Positions 671 through 32,879 of a stretch of DNA of 32,879 nt are shown here, piece after piece. How positions within the stretch are numbered: position 1 is the stretch's first letter; each line of letters begins with the position of its first letter. Source of the DNA: a virus. A program made the position numbers and the translations under genes. A model generated the notes under the pieces. The model was not told the DNA's origin and did no database searches. It worked only from the letters and a program-made list of their open reading frames with translations. The stretch is from positions 1 through 32,879 of the IMG/VR virus record IMGVR_UViG_3300030117_006525; one strand, written 5' to 3'.

Positions 671-3429
671 TGCCCAAGATAACTGCAAATCTTAATAGTT
701 TTGAAGGTGGTGTAAACAGAAATGCAGACCCTCGTGATATAGCAGATAATGAGTCTGCTATATTATGGGGGTGGAATGTATCTGACAAAGGAGTATTGAA
801 GCTTGGTGGTGGTCAAGCTTATACAACTGTTGGTCCTACTACAGATATAACTTCTGTAGATGTAACAGATACTATGGCAGGTCATGGATTAGGATTCTTT
901 TCAGCAGATTATAATTTGGCTCCAGCACTACATGATGAAACAGCAAATGGAGTAACATTAAATTTTGAAAGAACTGATTATGTGTTTTTAGCTGATGATG
1001 CATCTAATATATTTATACATCCCTATTCAGCTGAAACGGGAGAATACTCTGCGGATGATGTACAAGATTTTAATTTAGGTGGCGATAGTCCTGGGAAAAT
1101 AAAGTATTATTCAGCAGATGGTGGCATGAGAATATATGATGCTGATTTTAATAATACAGCTAATGTTAATAAATCTTTTTTACCTGTACAATATAAGTAT
1201 TGCAGAAAAGCAGTTGAGTTTATTGATGATATATTGTTAGAAGATTTAGGAGGAGCCTATGACTCTGATATCATTCCACCTGCAAGCGCATATCAAACAA
1301 ATAGATGGATATTTGGAGATGGATTTTTAGATACTAGTAATAATTCGGGATATAAAAATTTTGACCCTGGACAGTCAACAGGCGATGGAACTGCAGATAC
1401 TATAACACAAGAAAGTTATTTAGCTTTAAACTCAAGTATGAATATCCAAAATGCTAATGCTGTTATAAATAAATCAAATCTTCACGAAAATTTTAATCAT
1501 AATACACATTCATTGGCTTCAGAAGGAACAGGATTAGGAAATAAAGTATGGGTGCGCATGGGAATTAATACAGATGTATCATCAGATGCTGCATTGCATA
1601 AAACATTTGATTTATTTGTTACTTATATATATGACGAAAAACAAGAAACAACTCCAATTCCAGTAAGAGATTTTATAAATGGCGGTTCACCTTATTTTAC
1701 TGGAGAAGCAGGATATGCTTTAAGATTTATGATGGGTTTTGCTATGATTGGTAAAAATGCAGCAAAATCAAGTGCAGACCAATGGCATGTTAGTTATACA
1801 TATGCAGATTTAAAAACATGGAACCCCAGAATAACAGGTATATGTTTATATATGTCAGAAACATCTTCAGAAACTATAACATCTGATAGAGTATTATATT
1901 TAGTACATGAAATAGATTTGTTATCAGGGACAGTCAGAACTCCAGGAAGACCTGTTGGCGAACAAAAAAGCAATTTAATATGGTCTAAATCAAATTCAAC
2001 ATTTGGAACAGGATTTGATAATTATATTACACAATTACCAGGAGAAACATATCAATCAAGGATAGGTTATAATGCATTTGGTAATTTTTATGAAAAGTTT
2101 AAAACAGCTACAGTTTTAAATAGGCGTACATATATTGGTAATGTTGCTACATTAAACCCTAATGGCACTATTAAACGAGTATATGATGATAGAATGGTAA
2201 AAAGTCCTGTAAATTTATTTGATACTTTTCCTGAAGAAAATTTTGTAGATGTAGCAATAAATGATGGTGATGAAATTATTCATTTAGAAGGGTTTTCTGA
2301 TAGGATACTACAATATAAAAAAAGAAATCTATATATAGTAAATGTATCTCAAGATTTTGAATTTTTAGAAGGAACATATGAAGGATTAGGTATAAGACAT
2401 CATACACAAGTATGCAAAACGCCACAAGGTGTAGCTTGGATAAATAAACAAGGTTGTCATTTTTATGATGGTAAAAAAGTAGTTAATTTGATTAATAATA
2501 AAATTCGAATAGGTAAAGTAATAACAGCATCTTTAGCAGATATAGAATATCAATTAGGTGATTTAACATATTTTAAAACAATTTTTGATGATGAAGGTGT
2601 TATAACAGATGGTGGTGAATTTAATGAATATCCTGGTTGGACAGGATTTATGACATCGGAATTTGAAATAACTTCAGATGGCACCAATACTCAAAAAAAC
2701 TCTATGCCATCTATAGGTTATGATGCTCAATCAAATAAATTAATAATTATAAAAAGTTTAAACAGACAGGGTCAAAATGAAACTACAGGATGGGTATATG
2801 CATATGATATGATAAATGCCTCATGGACTTTGCATCCATATGCTTATGGACCTACAGGAGATGAGGAAAATAAAACTAATTTTATAATTAATTCACAAAG
2901 AGAATTAGTATTGTATCAAAATTTAAAAATAAATAATAATGAATTTGCAGATGAAAGTAGTTTATATAAATGGACTGATGTAAATTCCCAAAGAGTATTT
3001 ATAAATAGTGTTCCTAATTTAAGAAGTCCACATAAAATATTTTACAAAAGCAAAGATATAGATTTTGGACAGCCATCTATTAGAAAAAAAATATATAAAA
3101 TTTATATAACATACAGAAGCAATCAAGATACAAGTATTAAGCCTACTTATGCTGTAAATGGGAATACTTTAGAATTAGATACCTTTGGATATAGGGCTAA
3201 TGGAAGTTTTTTATTTACAAGTGATAGTTTAATAGGTCAATATGGACTTAAAAATACTAATAATATATGGGAAAAAGCAGAGTTAAAACCTGCCAATTCG
3301 TTAGAAGCTAATAATATATATTCTTTTCAATTAATAATTAGAAATGTATCACCTAATACGACAATAAACAATTTAAAATTTGCTATTAATGACATATCTA
3401 TAGTATATAGAAATAAAGGTATACGATAA
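670..3429 (+). CDS. Virion structural protein, tail nozzle/stabilisation-like
   Basis: 919 aa. The N-terminus, with FEGGVNRNADPRDIADNES at residues 11-29 and an Asn-Val-Ser-Lys-Gly turn just after, matches the recurring start of phage tail nozzle or tail-stabilisation proteins (T7 gp12 and P22 gp10-type beta-propeller proteins), in which an FxGG...RDIPDN motif is typical. The rest is rich in Asn, Thr, Tyr and Gly with alternating hydrophobics, as in extended beta structure, and has no signal peptide or membrane segment. It would form part of the short tail tube through which DNA and ejection proteins pass. It overlaps the upstream stop (TAATG) and shares one base with the next start, so it sits in a tight operon. 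The motif and position support this assignment; the exact family is inferred. Confidence 0.65.
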   Translation: MPKITANLNSFEGGVNRNADPRDIADNESAILWGWNVSDKGVLKLGGGQAYTTVGPTTDITSVDVTDTMAGHGLGFFSADYNLAPALHDETANGVTLNFERTDYVFLADDASNIFIHPYSAETGEYSADDVQDFNLGGDSPGKIKYYSADGGMRIYDADFNNTANVNKSFLPVQYKYCRKAVEFIDDILLEDLGGAYDSDIIPPASAYQTNRWIFGDGFLDTSNNSGYKNFDPGQSTGDGTADTITQESYLALNSSMNIQNANAVINKSNLHENFNHNTHSLASEGTGLGNKVWVRMGINTDVSSDAALHKTFDLFVTYIYDEKQETTPIPVRDFINGGSPYFTGEAGYALRFMMGFAMIGKNAAKSSADQWHVSYTYADLKTWNPRITGICLYMSETSSETITSDRVLYLVHEIDLLSGTVRTPGRPVGEQKSNLIWSKSNSTFGTGFDNYITQLPGETYQSRIGYNAFGNFYEKFKTATVLNRRTYIGNVATLNPNGTIKRVYDDRMVKSPVNLFDTFPEENFVDVAINDGDEIIHLEGFSDRILQYKKRNLYIVNVSQDFEFLEGTYEGLGIRHHTQVCKTPQGVAWINKQGCHFYDGKKVVNLINNKIRIGKVITASLADIEYQLGDLTYFKTIFDDEGVITDGGEFNEYPGWTGFMTSEFEITSDGTNTQKNSMPSIGYDAQSNKLIIIKSLNRQGQNETTGWVYAYDMINASWTLHPYAYGPTGDEENKTNFIINSQRELVLYQNLKINNNEFADESSLYKWTDVNSQRVFINSVPNLRSPHKIFYKSKDIDFGQPSIRKKIYKIYITYRSNQDTSIKPTYAVNGNTLELDTFGYRANGSFLFTSDSLIGQYGLKNTNNIWEKAELKPANSLEANNIYSFQLIIRNVSPNTTINNLKFAINDISIVYRNKGIR

Positions 3430-8377: not shown

Positions 8378-11300
8378 ATGAGCTATGACCCGTATTTTGA
8401 CCAGTTTTGGAACGATAAAAAAGAAAAACCTTTAGACGATAAAGAAGTTGAAAAAGCTAAAGAAGTAGTTCAAAAAACTTATGATTCTTATTTTGATAAT
8501 TTTTGGGATAAAAAAAATGCAGAACAAGAGCCTACAAAAGCAGAGAAAACCTATCAAGCACCTGATTTAAAAAGTAAAACTAAAATAGATGTAAATCCAG
8601 GACTAACTATATCTGATTATATTTTTAATAAATATGCTCCTGAAAGCGAAAATGATTCTACAAAATATGTACAAAATCTTTCTCAGTTTTTAGATATGGA
8701 TGTAACTAAAGTTAATTTATATGATGTAGATACAATAGCTTTGGCTGATGCTATTGCTAGACAAGAAGGTTGGTATGCAACTTCAGAAACAGGAGAAAAA
8801 AATAGACCACAAAGAAATTATAATCCAGGAAATTTAAGATTTGCTAATCAAATAAATGCAATAGGTGAAGATAAAGATGGGTTTGCTCAATTTAAAAACT
8901 ATGAAGACGGAATAGATGCATTATATAGGCAAATAGAATTAGACAAGGGCAGATACAAAGAAAGAGCTGAAAAAGACATGATGTCTGTAAAATCATTAGA
9001 AGGCATAATACCTACTGTAAATGATTTACATTCATTAGAAGGCGTAAATCAACAAAAAGAAGATTATTATAATGAGCTTGGTCAAGATTTACCAAAAGAC
9101 CCAACACCTAAAGATGAAGTAGGAAATATAGATATTCCTTATTATGGGTATGAATATAATACTGAAACAATGCAAGACGACAGATTGGGTGTCATAGATA
9201 AAAATGGCAATTTAGTTACTGATGAAAGATTATTAAAAAATTTCTTTGATGAACCTGAAGCCGACCAATTTGGAATGATGCCTCCATCTTTAAGAGATAT
9301 GTATGAGGGACAGGGTTATAGAGCTGTTAATCTTGAAACAGGTATGGGTATGCATACCAAAAAAGAATTAGATGATATTGTCAAATATGAAAAAGAAGTT
9401 TTAGAAACTAATTTCCAAGAAAGAGCATTAGAAGCATTTGGAGATGCAGATATGAATGAATCTCCATATTTAAGTGGAGCTTTGTGGGGTGAAACTCTTA
9501 AACATTTGGGCTATAAAACTGCTGAATGGGCAACATTAGGTTATTCTAATAGATTTATTGACAAACCTATTATAACATCTGTTTTAGATAGAAATCTTAC
9601 AGGAATAAAAGAATTAGATGAGAATGAATGGGTATCATCAATGACTTTTGCTAGAGTTATGTATGGTATAGGCGAAACTTCGGGACATATGGCTCATTTT
9701 GCGATGGCATTAAAAGGTGCTAGTATGGGCTTAACTAAATTGGGGATACAAAGCGAAACTCTTGCAGGTGCTATTGGATTTGCAGCTCCTGAAGGAATAT
9801 CTAGATTGGCAGACCCTGAAAAAGCAGAACATATGACTGCTAGAAAATGGTTGGTAGATACGGGTGCAGATGCTGTTATGGGAGCAGCTTTTCCTTGGTT
9901 AGGAAGATTAGGTGGAGAAGTTATAGCTACAAGAGGAAGTAATTTAAAAGCTTTTTTTAAATTATTAGCACAATCTTCTGTATTGACAGGTGGAATGACA
10001 GGAACTCAATTTGTAAGTAAATGGCATACTATAATGGAGGATAATCCAAAATTAACTGCTAAAGAAGCTTTAATACAAGCTGCAGGAAGTGATGAGTTTA
10101 AGCTTGAAAATTTAATGTATAATATGCTATTTATGACAGGTATGCATACAATAGGTTCATATACAAGATTTTTGCCTGGAGCAAAAGGCAAGGGAACTTC
10201 TTTGCAAAAAGGCAGGGCGTATCAAGATTTAAGTAAAATGAGTCCATCTCAAAGAGCTAAATGGTTAAAAGATTTAAGTGGCAAAGAAAGAGCAGAAGTA
10301 TATCATTGGCAATTAAAAAGAGCGAAGCAATATGCTGATAATATTCTTAAAGTTGACGCTAAAACAGGAAAAGTAGTTAAAGAATTTAAAAGCCCTAGAA
10401 CAGTAGCAGAAGCACAACAAATAATAAATAAAAGCAGGAATGCAATGGCAGACCTTATAAACAAAGGTACTCCAGTTACTCCTAAAGCAAGACCTCAAGG
10501 AGCAGGCGCAAAACAAAAAGCTGAACAGCCTGCTGCTCCTAAAGAAGCTGTTTCTAAAGAAGCTTTAGCTATACAAGAAGCTCCTAGTAAGGTATTAGAA
10601 AGATTAAGAGGAAATGCTGCTTATAAAAGTAATTTACTTGATAGGATGGAAGCCTCTCAATATAAAGTTGAAGTTTTAGATAAAAATATAGATAGTTATA
10701 CAGAAACAAAACAAGTAAGGCAATATAAAAAAGATGCTTTAAAAGAATTAAATAAACAAAAAAGAGATTTAAAATTATTAAAAAATGAAGCAAGAAAAAA
10801 TGCAGAAAAAGGTGTTGAGGGAGCAAAAGAAGATTTAGCTGCTATTAATGAAATGTCTTTTAATGTAGATAATCAAATTAGAGGCTTACAAGGTCAGAAA
10901 TTAAAAAGCAGTCCTTATGAAATAAGGGAAATGAGAAGACAGACTAAAGAAGCTAAAAAAGAAGAGACTTTGATTGAGCAACCCGAACAAGTAGAAGCTC
11001 CTGTAGTTAAAACAAAAGTTCCTACTAAGAAGGTAGATAAACCAAAAAGCTTTGATACTACAGAAGGTTTAAAGGCTGGATTAAAAAATAAAAAGACAGC
11101 TGATTCACTTATTACCAATGCAGATGGCGTACAATATAAAGTTGTACAAAAACTTGCTAAAGAATTGGGAGTTAAGCCTGTATCTAGAAGTAAAGATGAT
11201 ATGATGAGAGCTATTAAAAAAGAATTGCAAAAAGAAGCTCCTATTAAAAAAGTAGATAAACCCGTTAAAAATTTAGAGTCTAAATTAAAAGATTTAAATC

Positions 11301-14300
11301 AATTCCAAAACATACTAGCTAGTGAAAAACTTCAAAAACAAGTTGATGTATATGATTTAATGGAGCTTGCTCAAAGTAAGGGAATAAAAGTAACTCCTGA
11401 AATGACAAAAACTGATGCATTAGGTGCTTTATTTAAAAAGATGCATAAAGAAAAAAAAGTAGCTCTTAAAGTTGAAGAACAAGCTAAAATAGTAAGAGAA
11501 AAACAAAGAGGTGGATTTAAATTAGCTGAAAAGAAAATGTTAGAAGATACTTTAACAAGGCAAAAAGAATCTTTAAAAACATATAAAGGTAATCAAGTTG
11601 GTAGAGAACAACTAGAAAATAGTATAAAAGCTACAGAAAGATTGCTTGAATTTAAAAAGGTTAATGAAAAAGGACAATCGCCTTTAGCAGAAAATGCCAA
11701 ATCAGCCGCAGAAAGATTAGGTGGATTAGAGGTAGGATTTTTAGGAATGACTCCACAGAACTTTAAAATAGTAGGAAGAGACTTGAAAAAAGGAGCGAAA
11801 AGATTCGCTGATATTGTAGACCCTAATTACACATTAAGACAAAAAATAGATGATGCAGGAACAGTTGGAGCTCAATTTATTATAAATGGATTTAATAATA
11901 TAAAAGATTTTAGCAAGGTTATGACTCAAACATTTGGGCAAAGTATAAAAGCTTTTATGAAAAAGATATGGAAAAAAGCTAAAGGACTAGTTAAAGGTAT
12001 AGCAGAAAAAGGTGTTGTACATTTAGAAGATTGGATGGCTAAAAGAGGATTATTAAAGTATGCAGTAGAGCCTGCTAAAAAAGGAACTCCCAATATAAGA
12101 AAAGTAACATACGAAGGAGAGCCACAAGGTGTTGTTGTATTGGGTGCTGATATGGTAGGGAGGAGAGCGGGTCAAAGATTTCCTCAAGGTATAAGATATT
12201 CTGAGGAATTTAAAGGATTTGCAGTAGGCAAAAATATAGCTACACAATTACAAAAACAAGCAAATGCAGGTAATAATATAGTAGCAATAATGGGTTATCC
12301 TAATTTGTTAAACTCTATGAAAGTTAATCCTGAGTTTCAAAATGAATTAAAAAGACAGCTAGGTAATGCTGTAGGTAAAAGAGCTTTTAATAAGCTAATG
12401 AAAGAAGAAGGTGGTAATCTTCAAAAGATAGCACAAATAGTAAATAAAGAAATACAAATATATAATAAGACTGCAGTTAAAAAGAAAGAAAAGATAAATC
12501 AAAATGAAATAGCTAGATGGATAGGGGAACCTGATGCATCGCAAATGGCAGGTAAAATTGTTTATGTAGGTAAATTAAAAGAACAACGACTAGGAGACGC
12601 TAGAAAGGTAAAGCATGACACCTATGAAGCAGAACAGCTTTTTGAAACACTTGTAGAGCTAGAAAACAAACCAACTATACAAGAATTGGTATCTAGTATG
12701 CCCGATAGAAGATTTAAGGCAGGCAAAAGATATTGGGGTATGGATGTACAACAAAATGGCTTACTTGCACTAAAAGAAGATAGTGACTTAGCAAGAGCAT
12801 TAGTAGAGACAGGAGCAACTGGTAAAGATGCATTTAAAGCAAAGGGAGACACTCCTGTTCAATTTGCATCATCTGCTATTAAAGAAATGACTCCTGAGCA
12901 AGCTGCTATTGAAATGAAAGGCGAAAGAAGTAGAGAGTTTACTAGATTTAATGCTGATACCAATATAGCCCTAGGACTCAAAAGCAATACAAGAGAAGCG
13001 GTTGGATATACAAAAGAATGGGGAGATGAAAATTCTTTAGTTGATTCATATGTTGAAAATGTACCTAGCAAAATGTTAGAAGTTAAAGGGGCAGGGGTAG
13101 GATTATTAGGAAAACAAATAGATGTAGTAAATTTTAAGCCTAACCCAAAAGGTCCACACAAATTATATAAAGTAACAATTCCTGCGAAAGCATTGCCTGA
13201 AATAAAAGAAACATTTATTGAGTTAGGCATAGATTCAAAATCATTAGTTCGCAAAGGACAAGTTGTTGATGCATATGTATGGGATTATGGAAATTTAGAT
13301 AAAAAAATAATAGAAGGAGTAGCAGATTATTATGGAACAGGATACGAAGCAACAAAAGGAAAGTTCGAAAATGTCTCAGGGGCAGAAAACAGAAAACAAG
13401 CTATTAAAGCATATATTGACATTCTCGCAAGAAACCCGAAAGAATACGCCAAAATCAGTAAAATCCTCGAACAGCGTTTACCAATTTTCTATTCCAAAAA
13501 AGAAGCTCAAAAAATAATAGATAGAATAGAAGGAAGAAGAGCTGATTATATTAAAAATTTAGGGGGTTTAGAAGCAGGTTTTATGGGTATGACTCCACAA
13601 AACTTTAAGCTAGTCAAGAATTTATTAGTAGATACAGGGACATTTACTTATAAACAGCTAAGTAAAGGGACTCAAAAGCTTGGAGAAAACCTTGGTGTTA
13701 ATGCAGATAATTTTAAACAAAAGTTTAATCAATATGCTAAAGACCCTAAAAGTGTACCTGCTAAATTAAAATCTTGGTTCAAAAAAGTATGGAATCAAAT
13801 GAAAGCTTGGTGGAAAAAGAACGAAAGAGTGATTAGAACTAATCCTATAGTAGAAACCATAGAAAAACAATTTGATAAATTTTCAGGAAGAATGTATTTT
13901 GCTGAAAATCCTACTTTTAAAGAAACATTATTAAGAAAGCAAAAAATTAATGCTCGTATACATATAATAGAAAAGCAATTAATAAATGATGGGATAATGA
14001 CTGCAAATACTATTAAAGATGCTAGAAAATCTTTTTTAAAAAGAGACACTTTTAATATTACTGATATGAGTGAAGATTTATTACAATCATATGCTGATGG
14101 ATTGCAAAAATTTATTAGAGTAAAAGCTAGACCAACTACAATAGGAAGACAGCAAGTTATAAAACCTGAAACACAAGATAGAATATTTGCATTAAAAGAA
14201 AACTTAAAAGGTAGTGGTGAAATGACTGATGGTCATTATCAAAAGATTATAAATGATTTAGGCTTACCTACTGATGGGTTTGTAAATGACAAATTATTTA

Positions 14301-16588
14301 TAACAGAACAACAAGGAAAATCTTTAATAAGAAAAATGATTAATTATTCTCCTATAATTAAAAATGAAATAAAATTAGGGAAAGCGTTAGAAGATAAACC
14401 CTTAATTAAAGGTTATATAGACAGAATAGATAAAATAAATACTGTTAAATATCAAACACAAAGAAATAAAAATAAAGTAAAAATAACAGACTTTGATGAA
14501 TTAACAGATATGCAACATTATGTAGATTTATTAGAAACAAGGTCAGGTAAGCCTTTTGGAAAAGTATGGAGAGATTTAAACACTAAACTAGACAAAATAG
14601 AACACAAGACAGATAAACATTTAGATGAAATGGCAGGAATGCCTTCTTTTAAAAAGGTTTGGGGAAACAAAGAAATAGACAAAGAAATTAATAATTATAT
14701 ATTAAGCAAAGGCAAGGGAGAAACTACTCTCAATAAAGATGAAAAAGCTATAGCAAATAAAATTATAAAAGGATTAAAAAGTTTTGAAAATGATGTAAGG
14801 TTTGAAAGAGTATTAGAATTGCATAATGGTGGGATTAAAGATATTCCCGATGCTCCTAGAGAAGATATAAAAGAAGCAATGAGATTATTAGAGACTGAAG
14901 GTATGGGAGCTTTAAGAAAGTTTACAGATACTAAAGATTGGGGTATTATAGAGGCTTATGATTTAAGGGAACAAGTTACGGGTGGAAAACTAGCAGAAGG
15001 ATTTGTAAGACAAGCAGGTTTATCAGACAGACATTTACACGCTAGAACAGAACAAAACCCACAAGACAAAGGAAGGACTCAAGTAGAATTATATTTTTCA
15101 TACTATAGAAGAATGGCTAAAAGGTCTCAATTAAAAAGAGAGTGGTATGCTTGGACCAATCTATGGTCAGATAATTATAAGATGTTTGAAAATAGCGAAA
15201 GAATTGGAAATATGTTAGGCAGGAATATGGATGAGATGCTTGGAAGACAAGAATCTCAAAGCCTATTGACAGAATATGCAATAGGAATATATAGTCAAGG
15301 TGCTAGAACATTATTTGCAGACCCAACAAAAGGATTAAGAAATTTACTACAAAATACAGCAATAAATCCACAATTCTATAAATTGAAAAATTTAAGAACA
15401 TTGTGGAAAGGAATGAACGATTTAGATAGACAATATTTTGATATGCATGTTGACATTTCTAGTGCTATGTATAAAGAAATTACATTACAAGGATATGAAA
15501 GAAAACCTTTTAATGTTAATGATATAGAATCTCCATTAATGAGAAATACTGTAAAAATAGTAGGTGGTTCTGCAAAAGCTATTAATACACTTACATTAAA
15601 TATAATTCCTACTGCAAATAATATTGCAGATTATATTAATGTTATGGGAAGAACAGATAAGTTTAATAGATATGTCGCATATTCTATAGCATTAAATACT
15701 GCTAAAATGGCTACGAAAGGAATTGATATTACAAATATGACTGCTAAAGATTTAAGCAGACTAACAAACAAATCAGGTTTATTAATGTTGAGAGAACCTC
15801 AACGGAAATATGCTATGCAAATATTAGCAACAGAAGGAAAAAATGCATTTCAAAGATGGGTAGCAAAAGAAGTTACTACTGCAGTTAATTTTGAATATAG
15901 GAGAAAAATGAGAGGAGGACCTGAGCAAGGTTCGATGGCGGCTAGAATAATGTCTAATCTATTAACCTTTCAAAAAGGTAGATGGGCAAATGTTAACAAT
16001 GCATTAAGATTATATGGAGAAGCATATAGAGATAGTAAAGGGAAAAACAAAACTCCATTTAGGGATAGAACTGCTAAGGTTTTTCAAGGTAACAGAATTT
16101 TATGGAATACTTTTGTTACTGCTAATATAGTAGGATGGTTATATCAAGAAGTTACAGGTTCTAAACAAAACCCATATAATATACTTAATATTAATCCAAG
16201 TGTAGGTGGTCTTCAAACAGGAACTCAAACATTATTAGGAGAAACTGCTTATGCTATGCAAAGTTTTATAACAGAGCCTGATGCAAAGAAAAGAAATATT
16301 AATAATGTTATAAACCAAGCAGAAAAATTAGCTGATATATTTATACCATTCTATGAACAAACATTACAATTTGCTGAAGGATATCACGATGTAAAAGATT
16401 TAGATAAGCAAGCGATGAAAGAACTATATGCTTGGATTGAAAGTAAATACGAAGATTGGGGTGGGGAAGTTGGAATACCTTATAAAGCAGGTGTTATGAC
16501 AAAGCAAAATAGAGAATTTAAAGACCAATTACGAATGATGATGTTTGGAACTGAACCTGAAAAGATAAAAATAAAACCTAGATATTAA
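8378..16588 (+). CDS. Giant internal virion/polyvalent protein with N-terminal peptidoglycan-hydrolase-like domain
   Basis: 2736 aa. Two copies of a YDxYFDxFW motif lie at residues 3-11 and 36-44. A segment at about 125-190 (IARQEGWYA, NYNPGNLRF, GFAQFKNYEDGIDALYRQIELD) resembles muramidase or lytic-transglycosylase-like domains of phage virion proteins, with Glu129 a candidate catalytic residue. Residues about 360-600 are Gly/Ala-rich with hydrophobic amphipathic helices, as in membrane-inserting ejection proteins. A Lys/Glu coiled coil follows (about 690-1110). A GGLExGFxGMTPQNFK motif occurs twice (1115 and 1729), each followed by a basic Trp-containing helix, enclosing an unrecognised 600-residue domain. 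The C-terminal 800 residues are helical. The whole resembles T7 gp16-like ejection proteins and the 'polyvalent' proteins of phages. It would open the cell wall and form the DNA conduit during injection. It ends overlapping the convergent NinB gene. Confidence 0.65.
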   Translation: MSYDPYFDQFWNDKKEKPLDDKEVEKAKEVVQKTYDSYFDNFWDKKNAEQEPTKAEKTYQAPDLKSKTKIDVNPGLTISDYIFNKYAPESENDSTKYVQNLSQFLDMDVTKVNLYDVDTIALADAIARQEGWYATSETGEKNRPQRNYNPGNLRFANQINAIGEDKDGFAQFKNYEDGIDALYRQIELDKGRYKERAEKDMMSVKSLEGIIPTVNDLHSLEGVNQQKEDYYNELGQDLPKDPTPKDEVGNIDIPYYGYEYNTETMQDDRLGVIDKNGNLVTDERLLKNFFDEPEADQFGMMPPSLRDMYEGQGYRAVNLETGMGMHTKKELDDIVKYEKEVLETNFQERALEAFGDADMNESPYLSGALWGETLKHLGYKTAEWATLGYSNRFIDKPIITSVLDRNLTGIKELDENEWVSSMTFARVMYGIGETSGHMAHFAMALKGASMGLTKLGIQSETLAGAIGFAAPEGISRLADPEKAEHMTARKWLVDTGADAVMGAAFPWLGRLGGEVIATRGSNLKAFFKLLAQSSVLTGGMTGTQFVSKWHTIMEDNPKLTAKEALIQAAGSDEFKLENLMYNMLFMTGMHTIGSYTRFLPGAKGKGTSLQKGRAYQDLSKMSPSQRAKWLKDLSGKERAEVYHWQLKRAKQYADNILKVDAKTGKVVKEFKSPRTVAEAQQIINKSRNAMADLINKGTPVTPKARPQGAGAKQKAEQPAAPKEAVSKEALAIQEAPSKVLERLRGNAAYKSNLLDRMEASQYKVEVLDKNIDSYTETKQVRQYKKDALKELNKQKRDLKLLKNEARKNAEKGVEGAKEDLAAINEMSFNVDNQIRGLQGQKLKSSPYEIREMRRQTKEAKKEETLIEQPEQVEAPVVKTKVPTKKVDKPKSFDTTEGLKAGLKNKKTADSLITNADGVQYKVVQKLAKELGVKPVSRSKDDMMRAIKKELQKEAPIKKVDKPVKNLESKLKDLNQFQNILASEKLQKQVDVYDLMELAQSKGIKVTPEMTKTDALGALFKKMHKEKKVALKVEEQAKIVREKQRGGFKLAEKKMLEDTLTRQKESLKTYKGNQVGREQLENSIKATERLLEFKKVNEKGQSPLAENAKSAAERLGGLEVGFLGMTPQNFKIVGRDLKKGAKRFADIVDPNYTLRQKIDDAGTVGAQFIINGFNNIKDFSKVMTQTFGQSIKAFMKKIWKKAKGLVKGIAEKGVVHLEDWMAKRGLLKYAVEPAKKGTPNIRKVTYEGEPQGVVVLGADMVGRRAGQRFPQGIRYSEEFKGFAVGKNIATQLQKQANAGNNIVAIMGYPNLLNSMKVNPEFQNELKRQLGNAVGKRAFNKLMKEEGGNLQKIAQIVNKEIQIYNKTAVKKKEKINQNEIARWIGEPDASQMAGKIVYVGKLKEQRLGDARKVKHDTYEAEQLFETLVELENKPTIQELVSSMPDRRFKAGKRYWGMDVQQNGLLALKEDSDLARALVETGATGKDAFKAKGDTPVQFASSAIKEMTPEQAAIEMKGERSREFTRFNADTNIALGLKSNTREAVGYTKEWGDENSLVDSYVENVPSKMLEVKGAGVGLLGKQIDVVNFKPNPKGPHKLYKVTIPAKALPEIKETFIELGIDSKSLVRKGQVVDAYVWDYGNLDKKIIEGVADYYGTGYEATKGKFENVSGAENRKQAIKAYIDILARNPKEYAKISKILEQRLPIFYSKKEAQKIIDRIEGRRADYIKNLGGLEAGFMGMTPQNFKLVKNLLVDTGTFTYKQLSKGTQKLGENLGVNADNFKQKFNQYAKDPKSVPAKLKSWFKKVWNQMKAWWKKNERVIRTNPIVETIEKQFDKFSGRMYFAENPTFKETLLRKQKINARIHIIEKQLINDGIMTANTIKDARKSFLKRDTFNITDMSEDLLQSYADGLQKFIRVKARPTTIGRQQVIKPETQDRIFALKENLKGSGEMTDGHYQKIINDLGLPTDGFVNDKLFITEQQGKSLIRKMINYSPIIKNEIKLGKALEDKPLIKGYIDRIDKINTVKYQTQRNKNKVKITDFDELTDMQHYVDLLETRSGKPFGKVWRDLNTKLDKIEHKTDKHLDEMAGMPSFKKVWGNKEIDKEINNYILSKGKGETTLNKDEKAIANKIIKGLKSFENDVRFERVLELHNGGIKDIPDAPREDIKEAMRLLETEGMGALRKFTDTKDWGIIEAYDLREQVTGGKLAEGFVRQAGLSDRHLHARTEQNPQDKGRTQVELYFSYYRRMAKRSQLKREWYAWTNLWSDNYKMFENSERIGNMLGRNMDEMLGRQESQSLLTEYAIGIYSQGARTLFADPTKGLRNLLQNTAINPQFYKLKNLRTLWKGMNDLDRQYFDMHVDISSAMYKEITLQGYERKPFNVNDIESPLMRNTVKIVGGSAKAINTLTLNIIPTANNIADYINVMGRTDKFNRYVAYSIALNTAKMATKGIDITNMTAKDLSRLTNKSGLLMLREPQRKYAMQILATEGKNAFQRWVAKEVTTAVNFEYRRKMRGGPEQGSMAARIMSNLLTFQKGRWANVNNALRLYGEAYRDSKGKNKTPFRDRTAKVFQGNRILWNTFVTANIVGWLYQEVTGSKQNPYNILNINPSVGGLQTGTQTLLGETAYAMQSFITEPDAKKRNINNVINQAEKLADIFIPFYEQTLQFAEGYHDVKDLDKQAMKELYAWIESKYEDWGGEVGIPYKAGVMTKQNREFKDQLRMMMFGTEPEKIKIKPRY
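11720..11773 (+). repeat. First copy of duplicated GGLExGFxGMTPQNFK motif
   Basis: Codes for residues 1115-1132 of the giant protein (GGLEVGFLGMTPQNFKIV). A near-identical stretch recurs 614 codons later at 13562-13615. Each copy is followed after roughly 60-75 residues by a basic, Trp-containing helix (KAFMKKIWKKAK here). The DNA differs at many wobble positions, so the duplication is old or the copies came from different sources. Confidence 0.8.
13343..13499 (+). other. Patch of foreign-looking codon usage inside the giant gene
   Basis: In frame, this stretch uses CTC, ATC, TTC, GAC, TAC, GCC, CCG, CGT, AAC, CAG and TCC codons repeatedly (for example atc-agt-aaa-atc-ctc-gaa-cag-cgt), while flanking thousands of bases use almost only A/T-ending codons (ata, tta, aat, gct, aga). 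The change is abrupt at both sides, and the right edge lies about 60 bp before the second motif copy. A 61-codon alternative frame (13332-13517) is open here as a side effect. A recombination or domain-swap scar is the simplest inference. Confidence 0.6.
13562..13615 (+). repeat. Second copy of duplicated GGLExGFxGMTPQNFK motif
   Basis: Codes for residues 1729-1746 of the giant protein (GGLEAGFMGMTPQNFKLV). Thirteen of the first sixteen residues match the copy at 11720. It is followed by a basic helix with Trp residues (KSWFKKVWNQMKAWWKK), paralleling the first copy and marking an internal module duplication that flanks a large unrecognised domain. Confidence 0.8.
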
Positions 16589-27636: not shown

Positions 27637-28677
27637 TTATTTTATGTTAAGTATTCTACCAACTGCTCTATTAGAATGCCTCATAGCATCTATCAATGTA
27701 TTTGGGTCTTCTTTGATTCTACCAAGCCACCCTTTGATGTATGCTTGAGTATTTTGGATTGTTTCCTTATAATTAAAGCCATACCAATCCATAATCATAC
27801 TCGCACCCATCTCTGCAATTAACTCTTCAGTAGCATATCTTTCTTTGTGACCCTCCCATTCTCCAACATTGATAATCCCATCTCTACCAAGAACACTTTC
27901 GTGACCACTTGAATGAACTGCCTCGTGTGATGCAGTTTTAAACCAACTCAAATGACCCTTATCTCTATTTTTACTTTGATATTGAGTCATTAAAGGCATT
28001 ACTATCTTGTGTTTACTTGGTATATAGTGAGGACTTGAACCATAAGGCATTTTGATTTTTTCTAACTCGGGACTACCCTCAAAACCCTCCATTATTTCAT
28101 CAAATAGTTTTTCAGAATCAGTAACTTTGTATTTCTTTCTCTTTTTAGGTTTTGGTAGTGGTAAGTTGGTCTGTTCTATATTAAATACATTGTAAATACC
28201 ACCTATACCCCAATATTTATAGAAATCTTCTTCAGTATGTGTCCCATTTTTAATAGCTTTTTCATATTGTGCTTTAGTAAAAGTTTTCCATTTATCTTTT
28301 AGTTTGTATTTTATAGTCCAAAATTCAACTGCACTTGCTTTCTGCTTACCATCAGATAAGGATTTAAGTATTTTACCTTTAAACACCTTACCATCTTCAG
28401 TAACTAATCCTTTTTTAGTCTTTTTCAGTTTCATCATTTGAATAATTTGATTGTATGTTAGCCAATAGTTATGCTTATATTCGTTTTCCATAGCCACCCA
28501 AGTAAGATAGCAATTAAGACCATTGTAAGCCTTTTTTGTAGCATAATTGATAGGTATATTACTACCTGCACCATTCCAAGATTGTGTCCACATTGGTAAT
28601 TCGTCATTTTTTAATCCATCTTCTACCATAGCTAATACATTTTCTGCAACTTTTGATAATTTATTATTGTTTTTCAT
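27637..28677 (-). CDS. ardC: ArdC-like antirestriction protein with C-terminal metalloprotease-like domain
   Basis: 346 aa from the ATG at 28677 (TAATG overlap, GGAGG upstream). The N-terminal part (about 1-170) has the ArdC pattern: 'NYATKKAYNGLNCYLTWVAM' near 44-63, then YWLTYNQII and a KGKIL segment, the single-strand-binding/ArdC-N fold. The C-terminal domain has SHEAVHSSGHE with His251-Glu252-x-x-His255 and a later ELIAEMGAS (about 285-293), a zincin-type metal site. ArdC proteins block restriction of incoming DNA. The zincin could cleave a host protein. Position at the start of early transcription fits counter-defence. Confidence 0.8.
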   Translation of the reverse strand: MKNNNKLSKVAENVLAMVEDGLKNDELPMWTQSWNGAGSNIPINYATKKAYNGLNCYLTWVAMENEYKHNYWLTYNQIIQMMKLKKTKKGLVTEDGKVFKGKILKSLSDGKQKASAVEFWTIKYKLKDKWKTFTKAQYEKAIKNGTHTEEDFYKYWGIGGIYNVFNIEQTNLPLPKPKKRKKYKVTDSEKLFDEIMEGFEGSPELEKIKMPYGSSPHYIPSKHKIVMPLMTQYQSKNRDKGHLSWFKTASHEAVHSSGHESVLGRDGIINVGEWEGHKERYATEELIAEMGASMIMDWYGFNYKETIQNTQAYIKGWLGRIKEDPNTLIDAMRHSNRAVGRILNIK

Positions 28678-28865
28678 TATGATAATTTCCTCCATAGATT
28701 ATATTTTTGTTGTCTTAAGTCATAATAATACTCTTCTCTTTCTTCTTCTGTCATACTATTGATAAAATAGCTATGAGTCATAGTATCATTATCTTCATAA
28801 GGCTGATTTGCCCAAGCATCTTGTATTTTCTGTTCTTCTTTTGTTAGGTTTGTATTTAATTCCAT
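28677..28865 (-). CDS. Acidic small protein
   Basis: 62 aa, rich in Glu, Asp, Gln and Tyr (DAWANQPYEDNDTMTHSYF, EEEREEYYYDLRQQKY). The shared AAAAGG...CCAAATG leader precedes the ATG. The strong acidity and its place directly upstream of ardC fit a DNA-mimic anti-defence protein, but this is speculation. No motif. Confidence 0.55.
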   Translation of the reverse strand: MELNTNLTKEEQKIQDAWANQPYEDNDTMTHSYFINSMTEEEREEYYYDLRQQKYNLWRKLS

Positions 28866-29403: not shown

Positions 29404-29508
29404 TTAAATTCCTTTGATTATTTGAACAATAAAAATAGTTGGTGCAAACATTAAACCTATTGTTGCCCACCCTTTGATTACATACCACCAATCTGTGAAT
29501 TTATACAT
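29404..29508 (-). CDS. Small membrane protein, first gene of the leftward block
   Basis: 34 aa, read directly. AAAGGAAATC lies just before the ATG at 29508. MYKFTDWWYVIKGWATIGLM, then FAPTIFIVQIIKG: one hydrophobic stretch flanked by Lys. It is the first protein gene after the large non-coding region, so its transcript may continue from that RNA. Role unknown. Confidence 0.55.
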   Translation of the reverse strand: MYKFTDWWYVIKGWATIGLMFAPTIFIVQIIKGI

Positions 29509-29529
29509 ATTGATTTCCTTTACTTTTAT

Positions 29530-30170
29530 TTTGATTAATTGAAAATAGCCAAACTGCAGGAGCTGTTATCACTCTCGTGTTTCCGTCTGTTTGAATGACT
29601 ATTAGTAGTTAGTGAGGAATTGAACCTCAATATCCTATAAATACCATAGAATATACCACCAAGCCTAACTATTTAACTTTATACCTACCCCTCCATAAAA
29701 CACACAATTCTAATCTTATATCCATAGGCTATAAGGGAATCTGCTTTTATGTCTTTCAGTACATTGAGTCCGTCAGAATACTTTTTGCATTACATATTCT
29801 GTGATTAAAGTCGACTGCCTATTTTAAGGTATCTGTGTTGGTATGACTTTAGCCTATCAAAACGCTCTCACTATGTGAGTTTAATTCTGTATCTGCATCA
29901 AGTCAAGTAGTTTGTAGTCTTACAACGATTAACAACCTATGGTTGTATTGAATGCTACTTTATCCGTCTGTGAGTTATAGGTAGGTAGACAATTTGACCA
30001 CTCAATTCTATTGTATGGTGGCGAAGCTACCCAACTTACTTGCTCTAATCTATGTCAAAAATCTTCTGTGGTCATATTCCGTTACTCTATAATTAAATGT
30101 ATTCAGTAGTTCGTTATATTAATTGTAATAAGCCTAACACATTTAATACTGCTATATCGTTGTCACATTC
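29530..30170 (-). ncRNA. Large multi-branched structured RNA candidate
   Basis: About 640 nt with no usable ORF on either strand but many exact complementary pairs. TACCTACC/GGTAGGTA (29682-29689 with 29980-29987) closes a 300-nt domain containing hairpins ACAACC/GGTTGT (29932-29946), TTGTA/TACAA (29912-29925), CTCAC/GTGAG (29867-29879), CAGAATA/TATTCTG (29774-29801), CTTATA/TATAAG (29715-29735), and a TAAAGTC/GACTTTA helix (29806-29851). The tRNA-like domain follows immediately 3'. A TTGACA promoter-like box is upstream. The set resembles giant phage RNAs such as GOLLD or ROOL, which occur near tRNAs, but I cannot confirm membership. Ends near 29530 are approximate. Confidence 0.55.
29606..29671 (-). 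other. tRNA-like domain lacking a D arm
   Basis: Minus strand, 66 nt. TAGTTAG (29671-29665) and CTAACTA (29612-29606) make a 7-bp acceptor stem. Directly next to it TGAGG-TTCAATT-CCTCA (29629-29613) is a perfect 5-bp T arm with a 7-nt loop starting TTCA. Between them are a ten-base linker (GCTTGGTGGT) and a 9-bp hairpin (ATATTCTAT with ATAGGATAT, one U-G) with a 7-nt loop GGTATTT. There is no D stem, no usual U33 and no encoded CCA, so it is a tRNA mimic or remnant rather than a working tRNA. The U-G pair is consistent with the minus strand. Confidence 0.6.
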
Positions 30171-30172
30171 AT

Positions 30173-30202
30173 ATATTCGGTATTATTGCGTAGCTATGTC
30201 AA
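30173..30202 (-). promoter_or_regulatory. Promoter-like sequence upstream of the large RNA
   Basis: Minus strand TTGACA (30202-30197) is a perfect -35 box. With an 18-bp spacer the best -10 is GAATAT (30178-30173), a weak match. Transcription from here would run left through the structured region and into the early genes. TTGACATAG recurs at about 30055. Confidence 0.35.
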
Positions 30203-30296
30203 GTATTATTTTAATATTATTTAATTATTATCTATTTAGCGAGGGTAAAACAATACCATAATTACTATATAGAGTAATACTCACTACAATATACAG

Positions 30297-30317
30297 AGGA
30301 CTAAACAAGGACTAAAC
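30297..30317 (+). repeat. Two 10-bp direct repeats with 11-bp spacing
   Basis: aggactaaac occurs at 297-306 and 308-317 (offsets from 30000), one helical turn apart, in the non-coding region before terS. It could be a protein-binding pair. Confidence 0.5.
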
Positions 30318-30363
30318 CAATAAATATATATATAATAGATAAAGATAATAGTATAAATATGAG

Positions 30364-30392
30364 TCTATAAGGGCAGAATATCGTCTTATAGA
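30364..30392. repeat. Perfect 8-bp inverted repeat
   Basis: TCTATAAG (30364-30371) and CTTATAGA (30385-30392) flank a 13-bp spacer. It could form a hairpin or bind a dimeric regulator or terminase. It lies in the same 400-bp non-coding stretch as the other repeats. Confidence 0.5.
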
Positions 30393-30478
30393 GGGTATTT
30401 TGTTGTTTATAGGGCATTCTGTGGGGCAGGATTAATTGAAACGAACTCAAAATCAAAGTTAACCTAATCGCAATATGG

Positions 30479-30506
30479 AAAAAGCTAATTTGGGGTGGGG
30501 CTTTTT
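30479..30506. terminator. Possible A/T-stem hairpin terminator
   Basis: AAAAAGC (30479-30485) and GCTTTTT (30500-30506) pair around a G-rich loop, giving a T-tail on either strand. The stem has only two G-C pairs, so it is a weak or bidirectional candidate. Confidence 0.3.
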
Positions 30507-30530
30507 ATTATAATACCCTATACGATATTT

Positions 30531-30536
30531 TATAAT
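30531..30536 (+). promoter_or_regulatory. TATAAT -10-like box before terS
   Basis: A perfect TATAAT lies 114 bp before the terS start. No good -35 is seen at 17 bp upstream. It might be a late promoter recognised with help from a phage factor. Confidence 0.25.
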
Positions 30537-30649
30537 ATTTTTTTCAGATTGATTCGGAATCAAAGTTAACGGAAAGTTTTTGTATATATTTGGACTTTTA
30601 AAATTGTCGTAGGAGTCTTATCTTTAGTACTAGGAAAAAAACATAAATT

Positions 30650-31348
30650 ATGCAAGAATACAAAGTAAAAAATAGATATCACAAAGTTTATGAGATAGAT
30701 GAGGTTCCTGGCGAAATCAGGTATAAGGAAGATTGGCGTACAGGGCAGGTAGGAGATTGGGTATTGACAGATGATAATTGTGTAATTCAGATACTGAGAA
30801 AGAAGAAGATGAAGGGTCTTATTACTGTGGGGACATGTACTGGGACTTATAAGGTGGGTGACAAGTTCTTGATGGATACGGTTAAGAAAAGTAGTATTTA
30901 CACATTGGGTGGAGTAAGTTGGTATACAAAGATACAAGAGCGTGAGGAACCTACATCTAAGGAAAAGATGTTTGCATACAGACATGCGCTTGGTGAGTCT
31001 CCTTTGAATGCTTATATGAAAGTGTATAAGAGTTCGCTGGGTCACGCTAAGAGAATGTCTGCTTTATTAATGAAGCAAGAGAGGATACAAAAAATAGTGA
31101 ACGAAGAATTAAAAGATACATTTCAAGAATTAGAAATAGATTTAAAGTTTTTAATTGAACAAGCCAAGGATAGAGTTCTTGGTGCTAAGAATGATTCAGA
31201 TAGAATTAATGCTCTAAAGATGCTTTGGGATGCCTATGGTGTTGTTAAGCAAGAAAAGGTAACACAGGTAACAGGCATATTCCAAGGGCATACAACAGGT
31301 CAGCTAGAGAGCGCAAAAAGACCACAATTAGGAGAAAGTAATGACTAA
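30650..31348 (+). CDS. terS: Terminase small subunit
   Basis: 232 aa; an upstream in-frame TAA six bases before the ATG fixes the start. The first 90 residues form a beta-rich domain (VGDWVLTDDNCVIQIL, LITVGTCTGTYKVGDKFLMDT). Then a TerS helix-turn-helix core follows: KEKMFAYRHALGESPLNAYMKVYKSS (about 104-129, quoted in part), KRMSALLMKQERIQKIVNEE, and a C-terminal DSDRINALKMLWDAYGVV oligomerisation helix. TerS recognises the packaging site on viral DNA and regulates TerL. It is the first gene after the repeat-rich non-coding region and overlaps the next gene by 8 bp. Confidence 0.8.
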   Translation: MQEYKVKNRYHKVYEIDEVPGEIRYKEDWRTGQVGDWVLTDDNCVIQILRKKKMKGLITVGTCTGTYKVGDKFLMDTVKKSSIYTLGGVSWYTKIQEREEPTSKEKMFAYRHALGESPLNAYMKVYKSSLGHAKRMSALLMKQERIQKIVNEELKDTFQELEIDLKFLIEQAKDRVLGAKNDSDRINALKMLWDAYGVVKQEKVTQVTGIFQGHTTGQLESAKRPQLGESND

Positions 31349-32381
31349 AATAGCAATGATGAAAATGAAAGCTAGAGAAAAGGGTAAGCTTGAACGAAAA
31401 TATGCAAAGTATTTAGAAGAAGGTGCATTAGGAGATACTAAAAAAGCTCCAAAAGGCAAAATAGTAGGTAGTAAGAAAAGACATAAAGAAACTATGAAAG
31501 TTTTAAGTGGTAACAAAGATGCGCCTAATAAGAAAATAGGAAAAAAGAAATCATTAGTTGATGCTGATATTAAAAAAGTTGTTAAGCAAGTATCAGCTAA
31601 TAAAAAGCAATCTAAAAAAGTTGCTGAAGAAAAAAGAGTTAGAAATATTGCGGGTGGAAATCCAGTCAAAGGCTATAAAGACCCTATTAAGAGAGAAATG
31701 GGTGGTAAAGTTAAATATGAAAATGGTGGTCCAATATCAAATAAAGGTATGAAAACATTTATCCAAAGAGATGAATCAGGCAGACCAGGACCTGCTTATC
31801 AGCAACAACAACGACCTGATATTGGCAAGCAAGGTTATTCTGATGCAGAACAAGTAGAACGATGGAAAGCTGTAAAGGCATTTGATTCTGCGCCAGGTGG
31901 CGAGAGTGTCTTGAAAAAACAGCAAAATCAAGCATTTACAGATATAATGAAAGACCAGTTTAAAAAAGCAGGAAAAATAACTAGTAAAATGAAAAAAATG
32001 AAAACTAGAGATAAGTCCAAAATGATGCATGGTGGAGATATTCCTAAGCCTCCTAAATATAGCAAGGGTGGTGAAGTAGCTAAACATGATAAAGGTACAG
32101 TAGGAAAAAAGAAATCTTCTTTTATGGATAATGTTAGAGCTTTGGCAATGATTGAAGCTGACCAAAAGTATAAAACAGGCAAAGACATGAATAAAGCTTG
32201 GGGTAAAACTAAAGAAAAATTAGCAAGCATGATGAAAAGTGACAAAAAGTCTAAAGCAAAGGTAGCAAAATTTAAAGATGGTGGAGCAGTAAAAGTTCAT
32301 GAAGGAAATGTTCATAAATCAGCAGGAGAGCCAGTTACTACTTATCAAGCAAGTAATAGTAACTACAAAGAAGGGAAATAG
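31341..32381 (+). CDS. Basic Gly-Gly-motif protein between the terminase subunits
   Basis: 346 aa, extremely Lys-rich. Repeated patches MGGKVKYENGGP, MMHGGDIPKPPKYSKGGEV and KFKDGGAVKVHEG (about residues 113-125, 228-245 and 310-322) recall the KGGKLKGPSHKEGG motif of the internal protein at 4008, and the sequence lacks a catalytic core. The positive charge suggests DNA or capsid-interior binding, as for scaffold or internal proteins. It overlaps terS by 8 bp and terL by one base (TAGTG), so it is part of the packaging operon. I do not recognise a family. Confidence 0.5.
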   Translation: MTKIAMMKMKAREKGKLERKYAKYLEEGALGDTKKAPKGKIVGSKKRHKETMKVLSGNKDAPNKKIGKKKSLVDADIKKVVKQVSANKKQSKKVAEEKRVRNIAGGNPVKGYKDPIKREMGGKVKYENGGPISNKGMKTFIQRDESGRPGPAYQQQQRPDIGKQGYSDAEQVERWKAVKAFDSAPGGESVLKKQQNQAFTDIMKDQFKKAGKITSKMKKMKTRDKSKMMHGGDIPKPPKYSKGGEVAKHDKGTVGKKKSSFMDNVRALAMIEADQKYKTGKDMNKAWGKTKEKLASMMKSDKKSKAKVAKFKDGGAVKVHEGNVHKSAGEPVTTYQASNSNYKEGK

Positions 32382-32879
32382 TGGCTAATATAAATTCTAG
32401 AAATGTCTCTCAAGCAGAAGAAACTTTAGAATTAGCAAAAAGCGACATGATTGCATTCGGAAAGTTATTTCTTTCTGATGATTTTATGCGAAGTGAGACT
32501 CCTTGGTTTCATTATGAAATAGCAGATGTAATAATGGCAATGGATGGCGATATAGCTAAACATCGTAATTTAGCTATTATTATGCCTAGGGGACATGGTA
32601 AGACTGTACTTACTAAATGTGATATTATATGGTCGTTTTGCTTCGCAAAAGAACCTTTGTTTTATGGTTGGGTCTCAGCTACACAGAAATTAGCTACAGG
32701 AAATATGGATTATGTTAAAACTCATTTAGAGTTTAATGATACTATTAAATATTATTTTGGAAATTTAAAAGGAAGAAAGTGGACAGAAACAGATATAGAG
32801 CTAAACAATGGATGTAAACTTATTAGTAAATCAAATATATCAGGTATTCGTGGTGGGGCTAAACTTCATAAAAGGTACG
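32381..32879 (+). CDS. terL: Terminase large subunit (partial, N-terminal ATPase)
   Basis: 166 visible codons from a GTG overlapping the previous stop (TAGTG); the window ends inside the gene. The Walker A motif PRGHGKT lies at residues 69-75 after a FHYEIADVIM helix and LAIIM strand, the usual TerL order. YGWVSATQKLATGN (about 98-111) fits the following core. TerL hydrolyses ATP to pump DNA into the capsid and carries a C-terminal nuclease (not visible). Portal and capsid genes should follow it. Confidence 0.85.
   Translation, partial: MANINSRNVSQAEETLELAKSDMIAFGKLFLSDDFMRSETPWFHYEIADVIMAMDGDIAKHRNLAIIMPRGHGKTVLTKCDIIWSFCFAKEPLFYGWVSATQKLATGNMDYVKTHLEFNDTIKYYFGNLKGRKWTETDIELNNGCKLISKSNISGIRGGAKLHKRY

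Follow-up and report, generated by a model that had tools for sequence, protein, structure and literature searches.

Genomic setting of the locus

The window, that is, the whole stretch of DNA analysed here, comprises the 32,879 bases of virus record IMGVR_UViG_3300030117_006525, an AT-rich sequence from an uncultured phage. Structural and terminase genes run rightward, and a leftward block extending from ~29.5 kb down to 16.6 kb encodes Erf, RusA, a DnaC-like loader, a ParB-like protein and an ArdC anti-restriction protein. Positions 29492-30565, between these divergent blocks, hold no ORF of at least 60 aa, in agreement with the initial annotation, which had noted about 640 bp free of ORFs. 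The window carries a genuine, previously uncatalogued structured RNA of ~440 nt here on the minus strand, flanked by the following features.

29404..29508, minus strand: first small ORF past the RNA, 34 aa, hydrophobic, read from the sequence
29606..30049, minus strand: structured RNA body, ~440 nt with approximate ends, bounded by the boundary element and the tRNA-like domain, without a 60-aa ORF
30050..30061, minus strand: boundary element TTTTTGACATAG at the 5' edge of the RNA, present in all members examined
30650..31348, plus strand: terminase small subunit (TerS), identified by a weak PHROG match and by alignment with relatives

The 34-aa ORF is preceded by AAAGGAAAT, which resembles a ribosome-binding site, and the ORF probably heads the leftward gene block. 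TerS, the divergent neighbour of the RNA, served as the anchor for locating relatives. It had no match among isolate phages, where the closest identity for the terminase large subunit (TerL) was only about 25%. Neither the window region nor two family RNAs had a nucleotide match among isolate phages, and none turned up in GTDB genomes searched by terminase and by motif; the protein at 31341-32381 yielded little as a scan query.

Several further observations concern the record itself. TerL (32381-32878) runs off its end and no frame within positions 1-669 resembles the remainder, so that the record seems to be a fragment and not a closed circle. A 2736-aa ORF at 8378-16588 (plus strand) is without Pfam or PHROG match. 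The ArdC-type anti-restriction protein lies at 27637-28695 (minus strand); ArdC-like ORFs of 353 aa with the motif HEL(I/V)HSTGH were found by eye in two related contigs (L081, 1017-2078, and L013, 1689-2750, both minus strand), a few small genes behind the RNA. The string AATCAAAGTTAAC occurs twice in the window (30451-30463 and 30558-30570), and similar strings (CGTTAWCTTTGATTTTTTTC, minus strand) with a nearby TTTAAAAATTG stretch recur in most of the relatives read, in the interval separating TerS from the RNA; these are possibly a control or packaging site.

A family of RNAs divergent from the terminase

Relatives of TerS were collected from viral contigs, and one short motif was found to be shared upstream of the gene. 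The sequences flanking this motif differ in their letters between relatives while their complementarity is kept. Pattern and terminase searches extended the set to about 17 distinct viral contigs with the motif or the same unit, which in nearly all cases lies upstream of TerS and points away from it. The members are the window, L002, L003, L004, L010, L011, L013, L042, L053/L054/L201, L056/L058, L064/L065/L066, L072, L090, L109, L125, L132 and L192, of which L003 was assigned by eye and L109 holds just the 3' part and the boundary element. The domains shared are the boundary element, a hairpin with a near-invariant loop and a 3' tRNA-like domain. The nearest TerS relative of the window having upstream sequence, L081, lacks the hairpin, though a boundary element and a tRNA-like end resembling those of the family could be recognised by eye.

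Rfam searches of the window and its relatives, at gathering and relaxed thresholds, returned noise only, and no published mention of the family was found in open-access papers. The initial annotation had named conserved ORFs covering the region in relatives as a finding that would speak against an RNA; no such ORFs lie over the RNA.

The boundary element, as TTTTTGAMATAR or TTTTTTACATAA with small variants in L004 and L109, immediately precedes the RNA in all members examined, and 13 of its 17 distinct occurrences in 1.7 Mb of loci fall at the RNA. It is a candidate promoter-like or regulatory element. It does not resemble a plain sigma-70 promoter, and promoter scan matches were fewer than in shuffles. 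The TTGACA box at 30201-30196, singled out in the initial annotation, is not the conserved element; that is the boundary element at 30061-30050. The originally proposed span, 29530-30170, overshoots the family unit (about 30061-29606) at either end.

Since the RNA adjoins terminase genes in nearly all members, it might be thought a packaging RNA acting with the adjacent terminase, like the pRNA of phi29. The direction of transcription, away from the terminase and together with the replication genes, speaks against this, as does the fact that phi29 pRNA is much shorter and of different architecture, and we consider such a role extremely improbable.

A covarying hairpin with a near-invariant loop

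Within the RNA body lies a conserved hairpin that the initial annotation had missed.

29984..30037, minus strand: hairpin module, 12 of 12 consensus pairs covarying across 17 sequences
30022-30018 with 30001-29997, minus strand: inner helix; 30031-30027 with 29988-29984: outer helix
30002..30017, minus strand: near-invariant 16-nt loop CATACAATAGAATTGA, 13 of 16 letters invariant in 13 sequences with unrelated stems

The hairpin, with the loop CATACAATAGAWTTGA and the covarying stem, is present in the window, where 5 pairs make up the inner helix and the outer one sits a few positions away from its place in relatives. Each of the 12 flanking pairs is altered on both sides, with 68 double changes compared to 21 in shuffles. 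Pairing was possible in 84.0% of cells for 13 sequences and 85.8% for 17, against 52% when shuffled and 35-49% in slid controls (37-49% for the 17 sequences). The initial annotation had proposed covariation in homologues as a check on its reading, and this check has thus come out in its favour.

In several lineages (L053/L054, L056, L064, L072) an additional hairpin is inserted between CATACA and ATAGAATTGA, and the two halves of the loop accordingly form an internal loop. Two copies of the module occur in L011, L013, L042 and L064. A covariance model (R2) recovered the second L064 copy and L192, both outside its training set; in the window, which was itself part of that set, it gave a single match of 47.6 bits, the next best scoring 13.9. 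The hairpin is absent from L109 and L081 and is therefore not indispensable. The near-invariant loop is likely to be a contact site.

The match in L192 (3859-3911, minus strand) is a perfect 8-bp hairpin with a variant loop, GATACAATAGAATTT, in a phage from the other TerS clade; its sequence would fit either an outlying family member or a module that has moved. Scanning with the bare 16-mer gave mostly matches without a stem, which look coincidental.

A tRNA-like domain at the 3' end

The opposite edge of the RNA is formed by a compact domain, and the suggestion of a tRNA-like structure in the initial annotation is confirmed at 29671-29606 on the minus strand.

29606..29671, minus strand: 3' tRNA-like domain, 7-bp acceptor, 5-bp T-stem, z -2.7

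In the window the acceptor is TAGTTAG/CTAACTA and the T-arm TGAGG-TTCAATT-CCTCA; CCA is not encoded, and a 35-nt link with a 9-10 bp hairpin replaces the anticodon arm. The same end was found in 15 members, each with a 7-bp acceptor, a link of 13-54 nt, a T-arm whose loop mostly begins TTCR or CTCG, and the second acceptor strand. Despite differing sequences the acceptor pairs form in 15 of 15 members, compared to 59% when the arms are swapped between members, a count that is biased because the domains were partly selected by pairing. A strict tRNA-like descriptor gave about 8 unrelated matches in 3.4 Mb of strand, from which an estimated ~0.003 matches would be expected in the intergenic strand of the window. 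Scanning with a pattern for the window's own domain yielded little.

The domain is not a tRNA gene of the usual kind. ARAGORN called neither a tRNA nor a tmRNA at this position in the window, and a canonical cloverleaf (U33, 7-nt anticodon loop, D-stem) is absent, the window loop GGTATTT having G at 33. With links of 13-19 nt, most members have no room for an anticodon arm. Nor were the tag ORF and pseudoknots of a tmRNA identified, ARAGORN and Rfam finding none; the 5' acceptor strand does not lie at the 5' end of the RNA as in tmRNA, both acceptor strands being adjacent at the RNA 3' end.

These features bear on whether the conserved pieces act as DNA, for example as a replication origin, a cruciform or an attachment site. 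The sign of the GC skew flips near the RNA region, which lies between divergent blocks, as might be expected of such an element, but divergent transcription itself gives a skew change. Moreover, the T-loop letters, the G-U pairs included in the covarying helices and the one-sided orientation to the operon point to RNA, and a covarying 5' acceptor strand would not be retained in an attachment site that was a copy of a tRNA gene. A DNA element is hence very unlikely.

Folding of the RNA as a whole

The initial annotation had described at least seven short helices; collectively these are at chance level, the fold of 731 nt of minus strand having z = -0.04. The trimmed 448-nt RNA has z = -1.2 and its overall folding energy is ordinary, and with no excess fold stability, helices counted by eye are to be expected in such a sequence. 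The 8-bp pair 29682-29689 / 29980-29987, proposed to close a multi-branched domain, is a real string match that is neither above chance nor conserved. When different family members are mispaired with one another, an equally good helix arises about 10% of the time, and relatives are without such a pairing (own mean score 21.4, cross-pairs 22.9). The helix also competes with the hairpin's outer stem, and it was rejected.

RNA lengths differ too much for RNAalifold, which on 11 whole RNAs recovered just the tRNA-like domain and one internal helix. Closer relatives share a two-helix domain, CTGA..[GGTGAC..GTCACC]..TCAG, with modest covariation (92.9% of cells paired versus 85.1% in shuffles). This domain could not be placed in the window, where the middle part of the RNA has diverged and shows no supported structure.

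GOLLD in the sister clade

GOLLD was found on the same strand upstream of TerS in four sister phages: L172 (176 bits, 696-1112), L194 (170 bits, 2185-2614), L186 (159 bits, 2465-2856) and L181 (143 bits, 2240-2680), all on the minus strand, L181 falling just under the Rfam GOLLD cut-off of 150. Its distance to TerS varies, at about 1.9-2.8 kb, so that the two RNAs occupy the same slot only approximately. In the TerS tree the window belongs to a strongly supported clade of 18 rows, 15 of which carry the new RNA, as does L192 outside it. GOLLD occurs solely in the sister clade, and no record among those examined holds both.

Neither the GOLLD nor the ROOL model, by which the initial annotation had suggested classifying the RNA, matches any family member. 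The 416-position GOLLD model (conserved 3' domain), run on the window and 14 other family records with E up to 10, gave nothing beyond a 10-bit noise match in one of them. The 574-position ROOL model had no match in 22 records, a weak negative as the controls gave none either, and Rfam scans gave no ROOL match. A 7-letter likeness between the GOLLD terminal loop GUAAUCUCA and the central stretch GTAATCTA of relatives was not taken as homology. The core of the earlier proposal, a large structured phage RNA either akin to GOLLD and ROOL or of a new class, is nevertheless upheld by the covariation, the absence from Rfam and the GOLLD-like position, whereas the closing helix, the seven helices, the TTGACA box and the extent offered as evidence for it fail.

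Several phages of the sister clade have tRNA-Met(CAU) genes nearby; such genes lie in the corresponding region of L107, L166, L170, L177, L186 and L191. In L181 a 78-nt tRNA-like domain (2148-2225, minus strand) starts 15 nt past GOLLD (142.7 bits). It has the tmRNA-type start GGGGCTGAT..TTTCGAC, a G3:U70 acceptor pair and A73, with no room for an mRNA part; judged by these letters, it is a compact tmRNA-like end on the GOLLD RNA.

The new RNA could be a mimic of tRNA or tmRNA whose principal task is to engage the translation apparatus or tRNA enzymes of the host (synthetase, EF-Tu, ribosome), with the remainder serving as scaffold. Its T-arm/acceptor domain without a decoding arm shares its layout principle with the corresponding domain of tmRNA, and L181 has a tmRNA-type version beside GOLLD. 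The window family, however, has no CCA and no G3:U70, its acceptor sequence is unconstrained and its link ranges from 13 to 54 nt, and we regard mimicry as improbable.

The RNA might instead be a cis-acting 5' leader of the leftward operon, controlling translation or transcription, with the tRNA-like domain as a regulatory structure before the first ribosome-binding site. In every member read this domain ends some 40-100 nt ahead of the first start codon, as a leader would. The length of the RNA, its one or two module copies and the differing first ORFs of the members argue against it, as does GOLLD, a known stand-alone RNA, which occupies the same general place in sister phages. We consider a leader possible, though doubtful.

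A proposed GOLLD-equivalent RNA, probably released by tRNA-processing enzymes

The explanation that we prefer, with moderate confidence, is a new large phage RNA family that is equivalent to GOLLD in position and whose RNA is probably cut free by tRNA-processing enzymes from the front of an early transcript. The observations behind it are the boundaries of the unit, the covarying hairpin, the tRNA-like end with its changing yet paired acceptor, and GOLLD in a similar place. The RNA would be transcribed as the leading part of the leftward block; the acceptor/T-arm domain would be a substrate for host RNase Z and/or RNase P, whose cut at this site would release a stable RNA from the mRNA. Going by position only, the mature RNA would take the job that GOLLD has in sister phages, perhaps in scaffolding or assembly, with the near-invariant loop contacting another copy or a protein. 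By this analogy the new RNA may be a second, independent answer to GOLLD's task. More speculatively, and in our view rather unlikely, it would represent a further class of phage RNA, independent of both GOLLD and ROOL, that builds RNA-only particles, has a tRNA-like maturation domain of its own and replaces GOLLD in one clade.

The role of large ornate phage RNAs is an open question, and the equivalence to GOLLD places the new RNA within it without solving it. A GOLLD clade and a sister clade with an apparently unrelated RNA near the same gene form a natural comparison, in which the genes, timing and hosts common to both should point to the RNA's job. The fused tRNA-like domain is a testable clue to how such RNAs are excised and why they cluster with tRNAs, and a partner could be sought specifically with the near-invariant 16-nt loop as bait.

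Comparison with known systems

GOLLD and ROOL form RNA-only multimeric cages, are found near tRNAs and are without known function (PMC12286853). Like GOLLD (RF02032), the new RNA is a large non-coding phage RNA on the same strand and in the same general position upstream of TerS, and the setting near a tRNA is paralleled by a tRNA-like domain in place of the tRNA. It differs in lacking a match to the model, in its conserved motifs and in its length, about 440 nt compared to often over 800 nt for GOLLD (PMC12286853). ROOL (RF03087) is also a large phage or prophage RNA often near tRNAs (PMC12286853); its model does not match the new family, a weak negative.

With the tRNA-like domain of tmRNA the new domain shares the acceptor and T-arm, a D region without a canonical stem and the lack of a canonical anticodon arm. 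Unlike in tmRNA, the acceptor strands lie together at the 3' end, a tag-coding part was not identified and there is no G3:U70.

In the MALAT1/mascRNA system a long RNA is matured at its tRNA-like end, which requires RNase P (PMC11693755). That system is human, and cleavage in the phage RNA is something we only infer; as in MALAT1 (PMC11693755), however, the 3' edge of the long phage RNA carries a tRNA-like domain, which suggests end formation by tRNA enzymes.
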